Positions 4,868 through 39,239 of a stretch of 52,173 nucleotides of DNA are shown here, in pieces. Source of the DNA: Chitinophaga pinensis (GTDB taxonomy: Bacteria > Bacteroidota > Bacteroidia > 2-12-FULL-35-15); NCBI GenBank assembly GCA_945865315.1, contig CAMBDK010000007.1, positions 1-52,173 of the forward strand. The letters run 5' to 3'. The position numbers and the translations under genes were made by a program. The notes under the pieces are model-generated. The model was given only the letters and a program-made list of their open reading frames with translations. It was not told the origin of the DNA and ran no database searches. How positions within the stretch are numbered: position 1 is the first letter of the stretch; each line of letters begins with the position of its first letter.

Positions 4868-5319
4868 TTATATGTATTTCCAAAAAATAAAAAAAGAAGC
4901 ATTATTCTATACAAAAATAGAAGAAAAGGCTGGCACTTTTCAATTAAATATTAATCGTGCACATTGTTTTTAAATGCCGACGTTGTTTTGAAATTTAATT
5001 TTACTGTAATTGATTTTGGCAAAATAATTTTTTAATGAAAAGCTAGCAACAAAAAAAGTATAAAATCAAAGAACGTCGCTAAAATAAGTTAGATTAATGC
5101 CTGTTAATAGAGTTTTTAATAAAACAGGCTCATAAAAATGTCTTGTGTTTGATCGATGGTTTTTTTTTAAATAGATAGTTAAAAGTGTCGAAATAAAAAA
5201 ACATAAATTCATATAAAATCTTTAACTTTAACAAATTTTTTAATTCGAACACTTAAATTAGCATGATTAAAATAAGACTATTAATTTTTATAAGCATTAT
5301 ATCTTCAAGTGATTATTTA
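4868..5319. other. Intergenic region between folC and the PKD-repeat protein
   Basis: Very AT-rich divergent intergenic region. It carries the folC promoter on minus and presumably the promoter of the PKD protein on plus, for which no clear TAnnTTTG box was found. No RNA gene or repeat recognised. Confidence 0.4.
4912..4919 (-). promoter_or_regulatory. Promoter -7 box for folC
   Basis: On minus TATTTTTG matches TAnnTTTG, 45 bp before the folC ATG. A TTG about 21 bp upstream could be the -33 element. Confidence 0.45.
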
Positions 5320-8300
5320 ATGAGCACTTTAAAAAATAAAATAAAATATATTTATCGCCATCCAAAATTACCGATAGCATTAATTTTTCTTGTTTTTTGT
5401 TATAAATCGCAGGCGCAATATTCCTGTTATGATTTAGATTTCGAATCAGGTACGCTTCAAGGTTGGACAACAACAGGAAATGTAGTGATTGACTCTGTTG
5501 GGAACGATTTTTATGGAGGCTTCCCCGTTTCTGCGCCGGGAGGTAACTATTCGGCAAGGGTAGGCTCTAAAACTGATAATACGGAATCTTCCATTTCTAA
5601 AAGTTTCACTGTAACAAGTGCAAATCCAATTTTAACATACAGATATGCGATGGATATATTAAATTATCCCCATACTCCAAACGCTGCCGCTTTAATAACC
5701 ATTGATTTATTGGACAATGTCAACTCTTCGCTACAATGTGGTCATTACGAAGCTTTTTATGCCACAGGAGGAACTCAAGATTTTTTAATTTCATCTCAAC
5801 CCGAAGAAGGTAATCCATTTGGGCAGTGCTGTTTTGGTATAAGTTATCAGCCATGGAGATCTTTAAGTATCGACTTAACACCCTATATCGGCCAAACTTT
5901 AACTGTAAAGGCAACTTGTGAATGGTGCGTTTTTAATACCGACTGGGCATATGCCTATTTCGATTTCGGCTGCACCAATTTTGAAATCCAGCAAGATACA
6001 TCCTTTAAATGTAATGCTTTGGGCACATTATTAATTGCACCTAAAGATTTTGAAAGTTACAGCTGGACAGGTCCTGGCATTGTCTCAGGCCAAACCAACG
6101 ATTCTGCATTTGTTAATCAAACAGGTAATTATACGGTTAACATGCTTACTGCAACTGGTTGCGCAATTTCAAAAACTGTGTTAGTAACAGTAATAGTTCC
6201 TGTAATAAGCGTTTTTGTTGCTGGAGACACTAGCGTTTGTGAGTTAGAGCAAAGTGTACTAACGGCTTCGGGGGGGGTAATATACCAATGGTTAAATAGC
6301 GCTGACACAACCAATACAATTACAATAAGCCCAACAGTGACAACAAACTATAGTGTAATAGTTACAGATACTAACGGTTGTTCAGACACAGCCTCTATAA
6401 AAGTAATAGTGAATTCAAAACCGCAAGCCAATTTTAATCCAAACGACGTTTGCTTAAATTTCCCAACATTATTTACCGATCAGTCGGTCACAACCAACGG
6501 AACAATAACTTCTTGGGCCTGGAATTTTGGCGATGGTAGCCCCACGGAGCTTGCCCAAAACCCCAATCACCTTTATTTAATTGAGGGGGGGTATACAATT
6601 AATTTTATCGTTGCTACAAATTATGGCTGCATTGATACTGCCGTAGGCGCTGTTATGGTGCACACTCTTCCTAATGCTGATTTTGTAGCTAATAATGTTT
6701 GTGATGGAAGCCCTGTTGAATTCGAAGATTTATCAACTATAACAGGTACAGATACGATTCAGTTTTGGACATGGGATTTTGGCGATGCTAGCCCTCTATC
6801 AAATAATCAAAGCCCTACACATATTTATGGTACAGGAGGAACCTACAGCACGCAGCTTATTGTTGTGTCAGACTTTGGTTGCTCTGATTCCGTTTCGAAA
6901 ACGTTTACAATTAATCCTAATCCAATTATAACTTTTACAACTTCAGATGGAGATACCAGCGTTTGTGAGCTAGCGCAAACCGTCCTAACGGCATCGGGAG
7001 GGCTAATATACCAATGGTTAAGCAGCTCAGATATAACGAGCGCAATCACTATAAGCCCAACAACGACAACAAGCTATAGCGTAATAGTTACAGACACTAA
7101 CAGTTGCTCAGATACAGCTTCTATAACAATATTTATAAATTCAAAACCACAAGCCAGCTTTATACCAAACGACGTATGTTTGAATTTTCCAACATTATTT
7201 ACCGACCAGTCTTCTGTAACCAATGGTACAATAACTTCTTGGTCCTGGAATTTTGGCGACGGCAGCCCTATAAACCTTATTCAAAACCCCAATCACCTTT
7301 ATTTAAGTGAAGGAGTTTACACAATAAATTTTATCGTTACTAGTAATTTTGGATGCATTGATACTGTAACAGGCTCTGTTATGGTTCATCCGCTTCCTGA
7401 TGCTGATTTTGAAACTAGTAATGTTTGTGATGGGACCCCTGTTGGATTTGAAGATTTATCAACTATAACAGGAACAGACATGATTCAATTTTGGTCTTGG
7501 GATTTTGGTGATGGCAGCCCTTTATTAAATAATCAAAACCCGGCACATATTTATGATTCAGGAGGAACCTACAGCACGCAGCTAATCGTTGTGTCAGACT
7601 TTGGTTGCACCGATTCTGTTTCAAAAACGTTTAAAATTAATCCTAATCCAATTGTAAATTTTACAGCGGCAGATACAGTTGGGTGCAGCCCAATTTGTGT
7701 AAATTTCCAAAATCTAAGTGCTATCACATCTGGAAATAATATTTCTTATTTTTGGGAAATGGGTGATGGCAGCCCAGCACAATACTTATTAAATGCAAGC
7801 CACTGTTTTTATAACAGCTCCAATTCTGCTTCGCAACAATTTAATATTAGCCTTACTGTTACCTCCGACAGCGGATGCATTACCAAGGCTGTGAAAATAA
7901 ATAATATAATAGTTAACCCCAATCCTCTTGCAAGTTTTTATACCTTAAATCAATCGACCTCTATTATTGACCCTATTGTTTTTTATTCCAACTTATCAAT
8001 AGGGGCAAGCTCTTGGGATTGGGATTTTGGTGACCTTAGCGGCTCTTTGCTGGAGAATCCTATTTCTCATACCTACAACGATACAGGGATGTTTGTAAAT
8101 TCACTTACAGTAAAAAACAGCTTTAACTGTTATGATACAGCTTACCAAAAAGTTTGGGTTAACCAGGACTGGGTAGTTTATATTCCTAACTCTTTCTCTC
8201 CTAATCGCGATAACCAGAACGAAACATTTCAAGCTTTTGGTTCTGGTATTATTACTTACGAAATGTCAATCTTAGATCGCTGGGGGAAGGAAGTTTACCA

Positions 8301-8448
8301 TACCGTTAGCTATGATTATCCTTGGGATGGAAGGGCAAAAAACGGGGAAGATATTGCCCAGGCGGATGTTTATGTGTACATAATAAATATTAAAGATATT
8401 TATGGTATTGACCATACCTTTAATGGTATTGTAAATTTAATTAAGTAA
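5263..8448 (+). CDS. Large secreted PKD-repeat protein with gliding/T9SS type B C-terminal domain
   Basis: A 1061-aa secreted protein. The start at 5263 gives two hydrophobic stretches; the ATG at 5320 (MSTLKNK) would leave a normal signal peptide ending CYKSQAQ and is the more likely start. After an N-terminal jelly-roll-like region come an Ig-like domain and several PKD domains, recognised by repeated W-(N/D)-FGDGSP strings followed by H-Y. Residues about 321-562 and 563-804 are two copies of one Ig+PKD+PKD block (tandem 726-bp duplication). The last 90 residues (VYIPNSFSPNRDNQNE, then WGKEVY, then W-DG) are the gliding motility-associated C-terminal domain, which directs export through the type IX secretion system. 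Probable surface or adhesive role; exact ligand unknown. Confidence 0.88.
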   Translation: MIKIRLLIFISIISSSDYLMSTLKNKIKYIYRHPKLPIALIFLVFCYKSQAQYSCYDLDFESGTLQGWTTTGNVVIDSVGNDFYGGFPVSAPGGNYSARVGSKTDNTESSISKSFTVTSANPILTYRYAMDILNYPHTPNAAALITIDLLDNVNSSLQCGHYEAFYATGGTQDFLISSQPEEGNPFGQCCFGISYQPWRSLSIDLTPYIGQTLTVKATCEWCVFNTDWAYAYFDFGCTNFEIQQDTSFKCNALGTLLIAPKDFESYSWTGPGIVSGQTNDSAFVNQTGNYTVNMLTATGCAISKTVLVTVIVPVISVFVAGDTSVCELEQSVLTASGGVIYQWLNSADTTNTITISPTVTTNYSVIVTDTNGCSDTASIKVIVNSKPQANFNPNDVCLNFPTLFTDQSVTTNGTITSWAWNFGDGSPTELAQNPNHLYLIEGGYTINFIVATNYGCIDTAVGAVMVHTLPNADFVANNVCDGSPVEFEDLSTITGTDTIQFWTWDFGDASPLSNNQSPTHIYGTGGTYSTQLIVVSDFGCSDSVSKTFTINPNPIITFTTSDGDTSVCELAQTVLTASGGLIYQWLSSSDITSAITISPTTTTSYSVIVTDTNSCSDTASITIFINSKPQASFIPNDVCLNFPTLFTDQSSVTNGTITSWSWNFGDGSPINLIQNPNHLYLSEGVYTINFIVTSNFGCIDTVTGSVMVHPLPDADFETSNVCDGTPVGFEDLSTITGTDMIQFWSWDFGDGSPLLNNQNPAHIYDSGGTYSTQLIVVSDFGCTDSVSKTFKINPNPIVNFTAADTVGCSPICVNFQNLSAITSGNNISYFWEMGDGSPAQYLLNASHCFYNSSNSASQQFNISLTVTSDSGCITKAVKINNIIVNPNPLASFYTLNQSTSIIDPIVFYSNLSIGASSWDWDFGDLSGSLLENPISHTYNDTGMFVNSLTVKNSFNCYDTAYQKVWVNQDWVVYIPNSFSPNRDNQNETFQAFGSGIITYEMSILDRWGKEVYHTVSYDYPWDGRAKNGEDIAQADVYVYIINIKDIYGIDHTFNGIVNLIK
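6223..7674 (+). repeat. Tandem 726-bp duplication inside the PKD protein
   Basis: Two adjacent in-frame copies (6223-6948 and 6949-7674), each beginning with GGAGA(C/T)AC-AGCGTTTGTGAG and encoding the same Ig-like plus two PKD domains. Their protein products are nearly identical over most of the length with scattered substitutions, so the duplication is fairly recent but not fresh. Confidence 0.85.
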
Positions 8449-13114: not shown

Positions 13115-13330
13115 ATGAAAAAAATCTTTACCTTATTATTTATTGCAGTAGCAATGGGTATTATTTCTTGTGGGCCAAGTGCTGAAGAAACTGCAAAAAC
13201 AGAAGCTGAAGCAAAAGCAAAAATGGATTCAATTTTTACTGCTGCGAGCTTAAGTGCTTCCGTTGCTTTAGATTCAGTAGTAGCGGTAACGCCAGAGCCA
13301 ACAGAAAAGGCCGCAGAAGAAAAACACTAA
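13115..13330 (+). CDS. Small lipoprotein
   Basis: A 71-aa product with a lipoprotein signal: MKKIFTLLFIAVAMGIISC, cysteine at residue 19, then an acidic Ala/Glu/Lys-rich mature part (ETAKTEAEAKAKMDS). No enzymatic domain. It is likely anchored in the membrane by lipidation. The G after the cysteine gives no clear sorting hint. Similar short alanine-rich lipoproteins are common in Bacteroidota; the function is unknown. Confidence 0.75.
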   Translation: MKKIFTLLFIAVAMGIISCGPSAEETAKTEAEAKAKMDSIFTAASLSASVALDSVVAVTPEPTEKAAEEKH

Positions 13331-13390: not shown

Positions 13391-13543
13391 AATTAGTGTC
13401 TGTCCATATAGTCGAGAGTCTGATTCATAATGTTCAAGTTCGAGGCTTGCGAAGTTTTGAAAAGCAAGGAGTTTGCTTTTGCAAATGACTGTTTTCAAAA
13501 CAAGCATAACGAAGAAATTGGACATTATGGACAGACTCTAATT
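13391..13543. mobile_element. MITE-like 145-bp element, copy 1, with 4-bp target duplication
   Basis: The element spans 13395-13539. Its ends are AGTGTCTGTCCATA and, inverted, AGAGTCTGTCCATA (one mismatch in 14). It is flanked by AATT on both sides (13391-13394, 13540-13543). The interior is a long imperfect hairpin, with GTTTTGAAAA on one arm answered by TTTTCAAAAC on the other. A second copy of the same length lies in the opposite orientation at 39091-39235, with about 85% identity by eye. No transposase is encoded. The end sequence resembles IS5-group ends, so trans-mobilisation by such an element is plausible but unproven. Confidence 0.85.
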
Positions 13544-13591
13544 AAATTGGTTCTTGTTGCTATTGTTTATTAAGCCAGACGAGCGTTTGGC

Positions 13592-15232
13592 TTAATTTTT
13601 TAATTTTTTATATGAAACAGGTTCCCCCTCCTTATTTAATACCTCAATAGCCTTTTTAAGCAATTTGTCAGCGCTTTGAACAACAGGGAAGTAACCCTCA
13701 TTGCTCCAAATATTTCTTGCTATTAATGCTTTTAATTGCGTCTTTATAATCTCTTTAGAAGTTTTGACTTGTTTCACCTTTGCAACAACCTTGTTTTTTA
13801 TAGTATAAGCCACGAATGCGTCAAATATTTTGGGGGTAATCTCGAATGATGTATTAAAATTTTGAAAGGTTTTAAAGGAATTTAACTTTTTTCTTTCCTT
13901 GTCGGCATATGCAAAAGCGAAATCATTTATCAGGCCTCCATAAGTTATTTCGCTAAGGTAGTTTGAATAGCCCGCAGTATCTATAGGAACAAATACATCG
14001 GGAGAAATGCCCCCTCCTCCATAAACAATTTTGCCTGCAGGTGTAATAAATTTTAAGGAGTCGGGCAAATCTACCTGGGATAAGCTATCCTGTCCAGTAT
14101 TTATATTTCGATCCTCATCGTCTCTAAAATAAGCTTCGGTGCCATCCGAGTACGATTTCTGTATACAACGGCCTGTTGGCGTATAATACCGGGCAATAGT
14201 TAATCGCATTGCAGAGCCGTCGCTAAATTCGCTTTGCTCTTGAACAAGCCCTTTCCCGAATGATTTTCTCCCAACAATAATACCTCTGTCATTATCTTGA
14301 ATAGCACCTGCTAAAATTTCACTTGCCGAAGCCGAATTGTCGTCAATTAATATACATAATTTACCAGCCTCAAAGCCCCCTTTATTGGATGCTTTATAAC
14401 TTTTTCGTGGGCGGGCGTTCCCCTCTGTGTATACTATTTCTAGCCCTTCAGCCAAAAACTCATCAGCAATGTCCACTGCGGTACTTAAATACCCTCCACC
14501 ATTGCCTCTCAAATCAATAATTAATTGTTGCAGGCCCTGTTTTTTTAATTTAGCAAACGCTTCTAAATACTCCTCGTGGGTAGTTGCCGCAAAACGATTT
14601 ATTTTTACATATCCAATTTCATTGCTTACCATGTATGCCACATCAATACTGTATAATGGGATAATTCCGCGGGTAATTGTAAATGTAAGCAATTCATTCC
14701 CAACACTTCTATATACAGTTAATTTTACTTTTGTGTGATTTTTCCCTTTCAGTTTTTCTAAAACATCCTTGTTTTTTATATTCACCCCCGCCACAATTTC
14801 TCCCTCTACTTTTATTATTTTGTCTCCCGCCTTTATTCCCCCGCTTTCGGCCGGTCCCCTTGGGATGGCAGCTATTACACAGATGGTATCCTCTACAATA
14901 TTAAATTCAATGCCAATCCCTTCAAAATTACCTTTTAGCGGTTCGTTATTTGCCAACAATTCATCCGCGGAAATATAATTGGAGTGCGGGTCAAGGTTTT
15001 TTAGCATCGATACTATCGTTTTTTCAACCAACTGTTCATTATTAACAGTATCAACATATTCCTCCTGAATATACCGCAAAACTTCCTCAATTTTATCGTA
15101 TTTGTTAAAAGCATTAAGGGTTATTATTCTTATACTTTTATTGAGGTTAAAGGAGTTACCTAAAAAAAAACCTAGCAACAGCACAAGTGCAAAGAGAAGA
15201 GGGAGAAAAATATAAAACTTTGGTCTATTCAT
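13592..15232 (-). CDS. S41-family C-terminal processing protease with PDZ domain
   Basis: A 546-aa periplasmic or envelope serine protease of the CtpA/Tsp type. An N-terminal membrane anchor (about 7-27) precedes a helical region, a PDZ domain (about 105-180) and the S41 core. The serine lies in the SASAS motif at 300-304 (DDNSASASEILAGA) and the general-base lysine is K327 in RKSFGKG; LRGNGGG at about 241-247 is also conserved. It lies 86 bp downstream of the dCMP deaminase gene on the same strand and is probably cotranscribed with it; I recall this pairing in other Bacteroidota. The substrate is unknown. Confidence 0.92.
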   Translation of the reverse strand: MNRPKFYIFLPLLFALVLLLGFFLGNSFNLNKSIRIITLNAFNKYDKIEEVLRYIQEEYVDTVNNEQLVEKTIVSMLKNLDPHSNYISADELLANNEPLKGNFEGIGIEFNIVEDTICVIAAIPRGPAESGGIKAGDKIIKVEGEIVAGVNIKNKDVLEKLKGKNHTKVKLTVYRSVGNELLTFTITRGIIPLYSIDVAYMVSNEIGYVKINRFAATTHEEYLEAFAKLKKQGLQQLIIDLRGNGGGYLSTAVDIADEFLAEGLEIVYTEGNARPRKSYKASNKGGFEAGKLCILIDDNSASASEILAGAIQDNDRGIIVGRKSFGKGLVQEQSEFSDGSAMRLTIARYYTPTGRCIQKSYSDGTEAYFRDDEDRNINTGQDSLSQVDLPDSLKFITPAGKIVYGGGGISPDVFVPIDTAGYSNYLSEITYGGLINDFAFAYADKERKKLNSFKTFQNFNTSFEITPKIFDAFVAYTIKNKVVAKVKQVKTSKEIIKTQLKALIARNIWSNEGYFPVVQSADKLLKKAIEVLNKEGEPVSYKKLKN

Positions 15233-23573: not shown

Positions 23574-24668
23574 TCAGGGCTTATATGTTATAAATTGGAA
23601 CCCACCAGCTACAAAAAAACCGCTAGGCGGGTATAGCTTTATCTCTAAATTACCACTTCCGTCGTCCCCTGCAGAGGGCTTCGCATGAAAATCAACCGGT
23701 GTTACTAAAGTTATATAACTTGTTTCATTATAGAATTCACCAGTTATATTTATTGTATATATACCAGCTGATATCATAGAAACGGAAAAATTACCTGTCC
23801 CCGCATTTATTATTCCTGAATTACTTATGTTTCCGTATGCAATTGGCGCTAAATTAGCGCCTGCTGTTTGGCTTCTATTTAACTCGCTTCCGCTGCCCGA
23901 AATATTAATTGTGCCGCTTACATCTAGTTTGGAGGCGGGTGCGGCAGTTCCGATGCCAACCTTCCCATCTGTTTTTACCCTTAATCTTTCAACAGAATTA
24001 GTTTTAATTACGAAATCAGCAGAGTCTGTTGTTCCAATAAAGTTTACACTACCAATTGCCTGATTGCCAAATAAAGACCAGGCTGTTAGTGCACCGTCGG
24101 CGCCATCGGCACCAGTTACCCCAGTAGCGCCAGTTACCCCAGTAGCGCCAGTAGCGCCAGTTACCCCAGTAGCGCCAGTAGCGCCAGTTACTCCCGTTGA
24201 ACCGGTGCTGCCTGTAACTCCAATCACCCCCCCAGCAGATTTTGCATATAAAGCATAAGGCACACTCATCATTTGTGCTCTTCCCATAGAAACGGGATTG
24301 ATCGACCCCACAGTGTCAATCAATACTTCTAGGTATTTATTTCCGTTATGCCATGTAATCGCTGAAAAGCTCGAAGGGTTTATTTTTCCGATAACCAAAT
24401 TAAATAATCCATAACGGTTTGTGGATACAGGGCTATGCATTTCTAAAAACACGGTATCACCGGCAATTATTGAGTCCAAAATAATAAACGTAACCGATAA
24501 ATTAATAATATTGTTTATTGTATTGCCACTTGAGTCTCTAGCTATTGCTTGGTAGTTTATTCCCTCCGGAGGGTTTTGAGAAAATAAATTTAGACTTGAC
24601 AGGAAGCAGCCCATCATTATAATGGAAGAAACTTTTTTTGAAATAAAAATCAGATAGGGATTTTTCAT
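23574..24668 (-). CDS. Secreted collagen-like repeat protein
   Basis: A 364-aa secreted protein. A signal peptide (about 1-31, ending NLFSQ) is followed by an N-terminal beta domain opening [17 protein letters not shown], common in Bacteroidota surface proteins. Residues about 146-191 form G-x-x triplets such as [10 protein letters not shown] that would fold as a collagen-like triple helix. [18 protein letters not shown] segment, typical of tail-fibre-like repeats, and a C-terminal beta domain follow. No T9SS domain is visible. Probably a trimeric surface fibre; function unknown. Confidence 0.8.
24100..24210 (-). repeat. Collagen-like triplet-coding tandem repeat
   Basis: Repeated 9- and 18-bp units on minus such as GGCGCTACTGGGGTAACT encode Gly-Ala-Thr-Gly-Val-Thr. 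The near-identity of units at the DNA level makes the array prone to length change by slippage. Confidence 0.8.
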
Positions 24669-37501: not shown

Positions 37502-39088
37502 ATGGAAAAAGAAACAGGAAACATTAAATCCAAAATAAAAGCAATGGCAAACCAGGAAGATGTATTTAAAAATATTATTTCGCATTCAAAAGAGTATGGA
37601 TTTATTTTTCAGAGCAGTGATATTTACGATGGATTAAGCGCTGTTTATGATTATGGGCAAATGGGGGTGGAGCTCAAAAAAAATATTCGAGAATATTGGT
37701 GGAAGGCAATGGTACAAATGAATGAAAACATTGTAGGTATTGACGCGGCAATATTTATGCATCCTACTACATGGAAAGCCTCTGGCCATGTGGATGCTTT
37801 TAACGATCCTTTAATTGATAACAAAGACAGTAAAAAGCGCTACCGTGCCGATGTATTAATTGAAGAGCATGTGGCAAAGGCAGAGGCAAAAATTCAAAAA
37901 GAAGTTGATAAGGCAAGACTAAGGTTTGGAGAGTCGTTTAATGAAGAGACTTTTCTATCTACCAATGCGCGTGTTTTGGAAAACAGAAACATGATAGACC
38001 TAATTCTGGCTCGCTTTAAAGACGCATTGAATGATAATAATTTAGATGGGATACGCCAAATTATTATTGATTGTGAAATTGTTTGTTCTGTTTCTGGAAC
38101 AAAAAACTGGACGGAAGTGCGGCAATTTAACTTGATGTTCAATACGGCAATGGGTGCTGTTACGGAAGATTCGAATATTATTTACCTTAGACCCGAAACA
38201 GCACAAGGTATTTTTGTAAACTTTTTAAATGTGCAGAAATCGGGAAGGATGAAAATTCCTTTTGGCATTGCACAAACCGGGAAAGCTTTCCGCAACGAGA
38301 TTGTTGCGAGGCAATTTATTTTTCGTATGCGAGAGTTTGAACAAATGGAAATGCAGTTTTTTGTTCGCCCAGGAACCGAAATGGAATGGTATAACTATTG
38401 GAAAAATGCGCGCATGCAATGGCATCAAACTTTGGGCTTAGGTATGGAAAACTATAAATTTCGTGACCACTTAAAGCTTGCGCATTATGCAAATGCAGCC
38501 TGTGACATTGAATTTAATTTCCCTTTTGGGTTCAAAGAATTAGAAGGCATTCACAGCCGTACCGATTTTGATTTAAAAGCACACGAGGCTCATTCAGGAA
38601 AAAAGTTGCAATATTTTGATCCGGAATTAAATCAAAGTTATGTGCCCTATGTTGTTGAAACATCGGTAGGTTTAGATCGTTTGTTTTTATCCATCCTTTC
38701 CAAAGCATATGTAGAAGAAAAGCTGGAGGATGGAACAACAAGGGTGGCGCTTAATATTCCCGCTTTCCTTGCACCAATAAAGGTTGCCGTGTTGCCATTA
38801 TTAAAAAAAGATGGTCTGCCAGAAAAGGCGCGCGAAATAATGACTATTCTTAAACCGGAGCACGCTTGTACATTCGATGAAAAAGACACTATTGGTAAAC
38901 GCTATCGAAGGCAGGACGCAATAGGCACCCCCTTTTGTGTAACAGTTGACCACCAATCACTAGAAGACAATACAGTAACAATAAGGTATCGAGACACGAT
39001 GCTGCAAGAGCGCGTTTCGGCAAACAAATTATTAGAAATAATAGACGATAAAGTAAATATAAAAACAATGCTTAAAAATTTAATATAA
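37502..39088 (+). CDS. glyS: Glycyl-tRNA synthetase, alpha2 type
   Basis: 528 aa from the first ATG; the second ATG at 37544 (MANQEDVFKN) gives 514 aa, nearer the usual length. Class II motifs: motif 2 in FRNEIVARQFIFRMREFEQME, the glycine-site LRPETAQGIFVNF, and a C-terminal anticodon domain (APIKVAVLPLLKKDG). The single-chain type replaces the alpha/beta tetramer of E. coli. The stop codon is immediately followed by a MITE-like element. Confidence 0.97.
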   Translation: MEKETGNIKSKIKAMANQEDVFKNIISHSKEYGFIFQSSDIYDGLSAVYDYGQMGVELKKNIREYWWKAMVQMNENIVGIDAAIFMHPTTWKASGHVDAFNDPLIDNKDSKKRYRADVLIEEHVAKAEAKIQKEVDKARLRFGESFNEETFLSTNARVLENRNMIDLILARFKDALNDNNLDGIRQIIIDCEIVCSVSGTKNWTEVRQFNLMFNTAMGAVTEDSNIIYLRPETAQGIFVNFLNVQKSGRMKIPFGIAQTGKAFRNEIVARQFIFRMREFEQMEMQFFVRPGTEMEWYNYWKNARMQWHQTLGLGMENYKFRDHLKLAHYANAACDIEFNFPFGFKELEGIHSRTDFDLKAHEAHSGKKLQYFDPELNQSYVPYVVETSVGLDRLFLSILSKAYVEEKLEDGTTRVALNIPAFLAPIKVAVLPLLKKDGLPEKAREIMTILKPEHACTFDEKDTIGKRYRRQDAIGTPFCVTVDHQSLEDNTVTIRYRDTMLQERVSANKLLEIIDDKVNIKTMLKNLI

Positions 39089-39239
39089 ATAGAGTCTGTC
39101 TATAATGTCCGATTTCTTCGTTATTCTTGTTTTAAAAACCAGTCATTTACCAATGTAAACTCCTGATTTTCAAAACTACGAAAGCCTCGAACTCGAACAT
39201 TATAGTTCAGACTCTCGACTATATAGACAGACACTAAAT
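39087..39239. mobile_element. MITE-like 145-bp element, copy 2, with 4-bp target duplication overlapping the glyS stop codon
   Basis: The element spans 39091-39235, the same length as copy 1 and inverted relative to it. Ends: AGAGTCTGTCTATA and, on the other strand, AGTGTCTGTCTATA. Flanks AAAT at 39087-39090 and 39236-39239 differ from those of copy 1 (AATT), which argues for two independent insertions. The last two bases of the glyS stop codon are part of the left duplication, so the gene is intact but its native 3' region is displaced. Confidence 0.85.

Follow-up and report, generated by a model that had tools for sequence, protein, structure and literature searches.

A 145-bp hairpin MITE family in an uncultured Bacteroidota genome with ends like those of ISNCY-type (NF033593) elements

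The 145-bp element present twice in the window (the whole stretch of 52,173 bp that was analysed, which is contig C7 of the 3.27-Mb draft genome G000 of an uncultured Bacteroidota; 195 contigs, 98% complete) belongs to a MITE family that was very probably mobilised in trans by an ISNCY-type (NF033593) transposase, spread in at least two waves and then decayed neutrally, its palindrome being kept in the mobile lineage.

Results

The preliminary description had reported two inverted copies of equal length with about 85% identity by eye, a distinct perfect 4-bp duplication at each copy and 14-bp terminal inverted repeats. This geometry is confirmed (Table 1): the computed identity is 88%, and the terminal repeats of copy 1, AGTGTCTGTCCATA and AGAGTCTGTCCATA, differ at one of their 14 positions. 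The junctions of copy 1 read CTAATT/AGTGTCTGTCCATA...(145 bp)...TATGGACAGACTCT/AATTAA, and its identity to about a dozen other subfamily A copies is 94–99%. The ends of the family comprise approximately 19 bp (AGWGTCTGTCCATARAGTC and close variants). No ORF of at least 80 aa overlaps copy 1, and a transposase gene is absent from the 145-bp element. Copy 2 is inserted just behind the stop codon of a gene encoding a class II aminoacyl-tRNA synthetase.

Table 1. Features of the two element copies and their surroundings (window positions, or alignment columns where stated)
Feature	Position	Strand	Remark
71-aa lipoprotein-like gene, upstream of copy 1	13115..13330	+	empty-site anchor; convergent order with S41 peptidase gene conserved in relatives
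Left target-site duplication AATT, copy 1	13391..13394	.	identical to 13540–13543
MITE copy 1, 145 bp	13395..13539	+	subfamily A; read from sequence
Left terminal inverted repeat AGTGTCTGTCCATATAGTC	13395..13413	+	matches autonomous ISNCY element ends
Imperfect palindrome (long hairpin)	13415..13539	+	inner left repeat AGAGTCTGATTCATAATG pairs with right end
Right terminal inverted repeat, minus-strand reading AGAGTCTGTCCATAATGTC	13521..13539	-	sequence and end comparison
Right target-site duplication AATT, copy 1	13540..13543	.	read from sequence
S41 peptidase gene	13592..15232	-	second empty-site anchor
Copy 2 target-site duplication AAAT, first side	39087..39090	.	read from sequence
MITE copy 2, 145 bp, subfamily B	39091..39235	-	inverted relative to copy 1
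Copy 2 target-site duplication AAAT, second side	39236..39239	.	read from sequence
Compensated base-pair swaps, A vs B	columns 32/136, 55/112, 81/88		

The proposed check for further copies was borne out: a census built from searches and extracted loci gave at least 41 strong full or partial copies in the genome, a lower bound (one query; 40 of 105 first-look candidates scored). The end motif, with up to one mismatch, has 141 matches genome-wide, compared with 0 for the reversed pattern, which excludes chance. Exact ends are present in only 3 of the 36 genomes of the genus. Identity is about 95% within subfamilies A and B and 86% between them. Two larger classes share the same ends: one of about 197 bp, which is the 145-bp element with about 52 bp extra near the right end, and one of about 233 bp with another body. 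Within the 233-bp class (e.g. L085:1566–1797) lies a REP-like palindrome, GTCATTGCGAGG...AGCAATCTC. Solitary instances of it are found at other places in the genome, and in relatives it lies close to genes (L206, L220).

Several cases of adjoining elements with a common AATT between them were seen (L085, L061). One locus was assembled twice, at the end of contig C76 and the start of contig C116, with a 145-bp element (L083:85–229) in one version and a 59-bp form lacking the hairpin centre (L061:2286–2344) in the other; this suggests strain variation, an assembly artefact also being possible. At L057:2161–2188 (contig C18) a 28-bp element consists of little beyond both terminal repeats fused, with AATT on each side; it represents either the smallest form able to move or what is left of an element that has lost its hairpin. 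Two 145-bp elements in tandem fusion lie at the start of contig C123 (L081:1–254); this arrangement may be genuine or may have been produced by the assembly. A different element of about 220 bp, with ends near GTAATGGACA / TGTCCATTAC, is nested in a 197-class and a 233-class MITE (L072 about 1885–2105 and L053 about 1977–2197, on contigs C35 and C4), each time with its own 8–11-bp duplication (CCTCGAACTCG; AACATTTT), and represents another family of MITEs in G000. The window also holds tandem 9-bp (three-codon) repeats GCGCCAGTA/ACCCCAGTA at 24082–24225, inside the minus-strand ORF 23574–24668, and two 300-bp direct repeats with 81% identity (6222–6521 and 6948–7247) within ORF 5263–8448.

Among 30 aligned full-length 145-bp copies, the 4-bp duplication is exact in 25, carries one mismatch in 4 and two in 1. 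Across all extracted element instances, the longest match was an exact 4-bp duplication in 60 and a longer one in a single case. The 60 duplicated targets are AATT (38), AAAT/ATTT (18), AACT/AGTT (3) and AAGT/ACTT (1); the preceding base is T in 58 and the following base A in all 60, which gives the context TA-NN-TA. Because of this nearly constant context a 6-bp TAATTA duplication was considered. It was rejected on L004 and L095, where the outer left base is not T and the element still ends in T; these two cases, few as they are, favour a 4-bp duplication and element ends of the form A...T. Most testable insertions (41 of 48) lie outside ORFs of at least 120 aa, and the neighbouring gene pairs comprise 25 codirectional and 9 convergent ones.

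Nine relatives (L214, L215, L216, L217, L219, L221, L222, L223, L226) carry the same convergent gene pair as the copy 1 site with a gap of 2–107 bp and no element. In the window the gap between the lipoprotein and S41 genes is 261 bp, or 112 bp after subtraction of the element and one duplication. The same 145 bp without target duplication at orthologous sites, named beforehand as the sign of a conserved RNA, is thus not what is seen. In two further relatives (L218, L220) the lipoprotein/S41 gap is long and paired element ends were not found there. Thirteen relatives do not share the gene order around copy 2, and a clean empty site could therefore not be defined there; the orthologues showed no element. 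The lipoprotein/S41 pair in the window retains a hairpin of its own with flanking T/A runs at about 13572–13600.

The preliminary description had taken nearly the whole element for a palindrome folding into one long hairpin. A long, stable hairpin is indeed predicted for copy 1 (minimum free energy -56.2 kcal/mol, shuffles -30.7 ± 3.9, z = -6.6), but the outer 20 bp or so of the left end lie outside the main stem, in which the right end pairs with the inner repeat AGAGTCTGATTCATAATG, whose start lies some 21 bp inward from the left end. Long hairpins also occur in the 197-bp class (z -6.7), the 233-bp class (z -11.0) and a 186-bp class in genome G016 (z -8.7). No Rfam match was found at the element. 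Stem conservation had been considered because private mutations were rarer than expected in stems of an RNAalifold structure; such a structure favours invariant columns, and the effect was gone when one subfamily's fold was used on the other subfamily's mutations. In this cross-fold test, 15 of 26 private mutations (18.3 expected) and 32 of 42 (28.5 expected) fell in stems. Resident copies drift, and their mutations disregard the hairpin. Between subfamilies A and B, 15 alignment columns differ, and six of these make up three complete base-pair swaps.

The ends had been likened to those of the IS5 group. Insertion sequences with these ends and AATT duplications instead encode ISNCY (NF033593) transposases, which share with IS5 just the wider DDE_Tnp_1 domain. 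Transposases with MITE-like ends are 441–452 aa long; those of L099 (same genus, 366 bits), L135 and L136 (other MAGs) score 366–379 bits to NCBIfam NF033593 (cut-off 325) and 96–113 bits to the IS5 profile NF033578 (cut-off 275; L099, 96). L135 has the ends AAGTCTGTCCATAAAGTC / GTGTCTGTCCATAAAGTC with TAATTA on each side, and L136 the ends AGAGTCTGTCAATAGAGT / AGAGTTTGTCTATAAAGT with AATT on each side. The L099 element is partial, with one end AGTGTCTGTCTTTTAAGTC and the other off the contig. Two more elements from other MAGs, L137 and L138, have ends similar to those of the MITE; in L137 the ends match and the duplication does not. L111, from the same genus, is NF033593-like at half a bit under the cut-off; its ends differ, and its AATT flanks are also duplicated. 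Judged by their sequences, the ends and duplication of the MITE match those of NF033593 elements, and the agreement in end motif, duplication length and target points to the ISNCY branch and not to IS5.

The search for an insertion sequence with these ends thus succeeded in other genomes (L135, L136) and not in the MITE's own assembly, where profile and protein searches found neither an NF033593 transposase nor a relative of the L099 or L135 proteins. An autonomous insertion sequence sharing its ends with a MITE usually resides in the same genome, although this is not strictly required. Since this assembly is fragmented at repeats, the source may be unassembled, absent or lost, and the transposase acting in trans is deduced from other genomes. 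Five DDE_Tnp_1 (PF01609) matches in the own genome were rejected as the source: none is flanked by MITE ends, and one lies near a 233-bp MITE. A scan of viral contigs for the left end found nothing. The MITE body matches no interior of any insertion sequence seen, so that an origin as a deletion derivative is not shown.

Discussion

Based on the common ends, the duplications and the target context, we propose the following scenario as very probable, in which (i) the ends of about 19 bp would be the sites bound and cleaved by an ISNCY-type (NF033593) DDE transposase acting in trans; (ii) insertion takes place into TA-NN-TA, mostly intergenic TAATTA and TAAATA; (iii) a 4-bp staggered cut, filled in, would yield the observed AATT and AAAT duplications; (iv) the family has spread in at least two waves, represented by subfamilies A and B, followed by neutral decay of the copies; and (v) the long palindrome would have been kept in the mobile source lineage, through self-correction or a need in transposition, and not as a host RNA.

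The identification as a MITE in the preliminary description holds, strongly supported by the many copies, the exact duplications and the empty orthologous sites; an IS5-family MITE with ends cut by an IS5-group transposase is very improbable. ISNCY transposases are distantly related to IS5 through DDE_Tnp_1, as the scores to NF033578 reflect, but the three proteins encoded next to such ends exceed the NF033593 cut-off and remain far under that for IS5, and none of the five DDE_Tnp_1 matches of the own genome carries MITE ends. It is scarcely credible that the element is a structured RNA, or a regulatory hairpin such as a terminator or attenuator, that selection has conserved at each site. Although the very stable fold and the three compensated pair changes between A and B would fit, target duplications, empty orthologous sites, restriction to a lineage and unrelated neighbour genes speak against it, as do the lack of an Rfam match at the element and the private mutations, which are not depleted in stems under the other subfamily's fold. 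A domesticated MITE, spread by transposition and with some copies now serving neighbouring transcripts as hairpins for processing or termination, would be consistent with the intergenic location, the long hairpin and the codirectional and convergent neighbour pairs. However, no conserved individual insertions were seen, the mutation pattern of the copies looks neutral and the lipoprotein/S41 pair already has its own hairpin; we consider domestication unlikely.

Within the preferred scenario of a MITE family mobilised by an ISNCY-type transposase, the palindrome appears to have been maintained in the mobile lineage and not as a host RNA. Self-correction of palindromes by template switching is established and would account for a kept palindrome without any function. 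A functional need of the palindrome for mobility seems rather doubtful; it is suggested by three hairpin classes (145/197-bp, 233-bp and the 186-bp class of G016) that have the same ends and largely different bodies, and by the three base pairs exchanged on both strands of the stem in the mobile lineage of the 145-bp class. If the palindrome were needed, transposases of this ISNCY branch would prefer a strand that forms a hairpin, or would work by way of one.

The element belongs to a known type and is rather ordinary within it. Like MITECca01 of Cardinium, an IS982-derived bacterial MITE (PMC9769881), and other bacterial MITEs, it is short, lacks a transposase gene, has insertion sequence-like ends and many mostly intergenic copies, and is presumed to be mobilised in trans; unlike for MITECca01, the transposase family is ISNCY NF033593 and no parental insertion sequence was found in the same assembly. 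The ISL3-associated 187-bp stem-loop MITE of Microcystis (PMC11448079) is likewise a hairpin MITE with tens of copies, but differs in transposase family and phylum. With NF033593 ISNCY elements (L135, L136, L099, L138) the MITE shares a terminal sequence close to AGWGTCTGTCMATARAGTC, and with L135 and L136 also AATT/TAATTA on both sides; unlike these elements of about 1.6–2.0 kb, it has no transposase and has the ends alone in common with them. The IS1202 group, which is also filed under ISNCY, has 24–26-bp imperfect terminal inverted repeats with TGT..ACA outer ends, a TnsB-like transposase of 394–507 aa and mostly 5-bp or 16–28-bp duplications (PMC10132070), in contrast to the AG..CT ends, DDE_Tnp_1 transposase and 4-bp duplications of the elements described here. 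Literature searches did not find a MITE assigned to the ISNCY family among the papers covered, which is no proof of absence.

In summary, our analysis connects a family of MITEs with NF033593 elements, a little-studied branch of ISNCY, and suggests the end motif, the 4-bp duplication and the TA-NN-TA target of this branch. The dozens of insertions provide material to study how a transposase-less element remains abundant in a genome in which its transposase is not seen.
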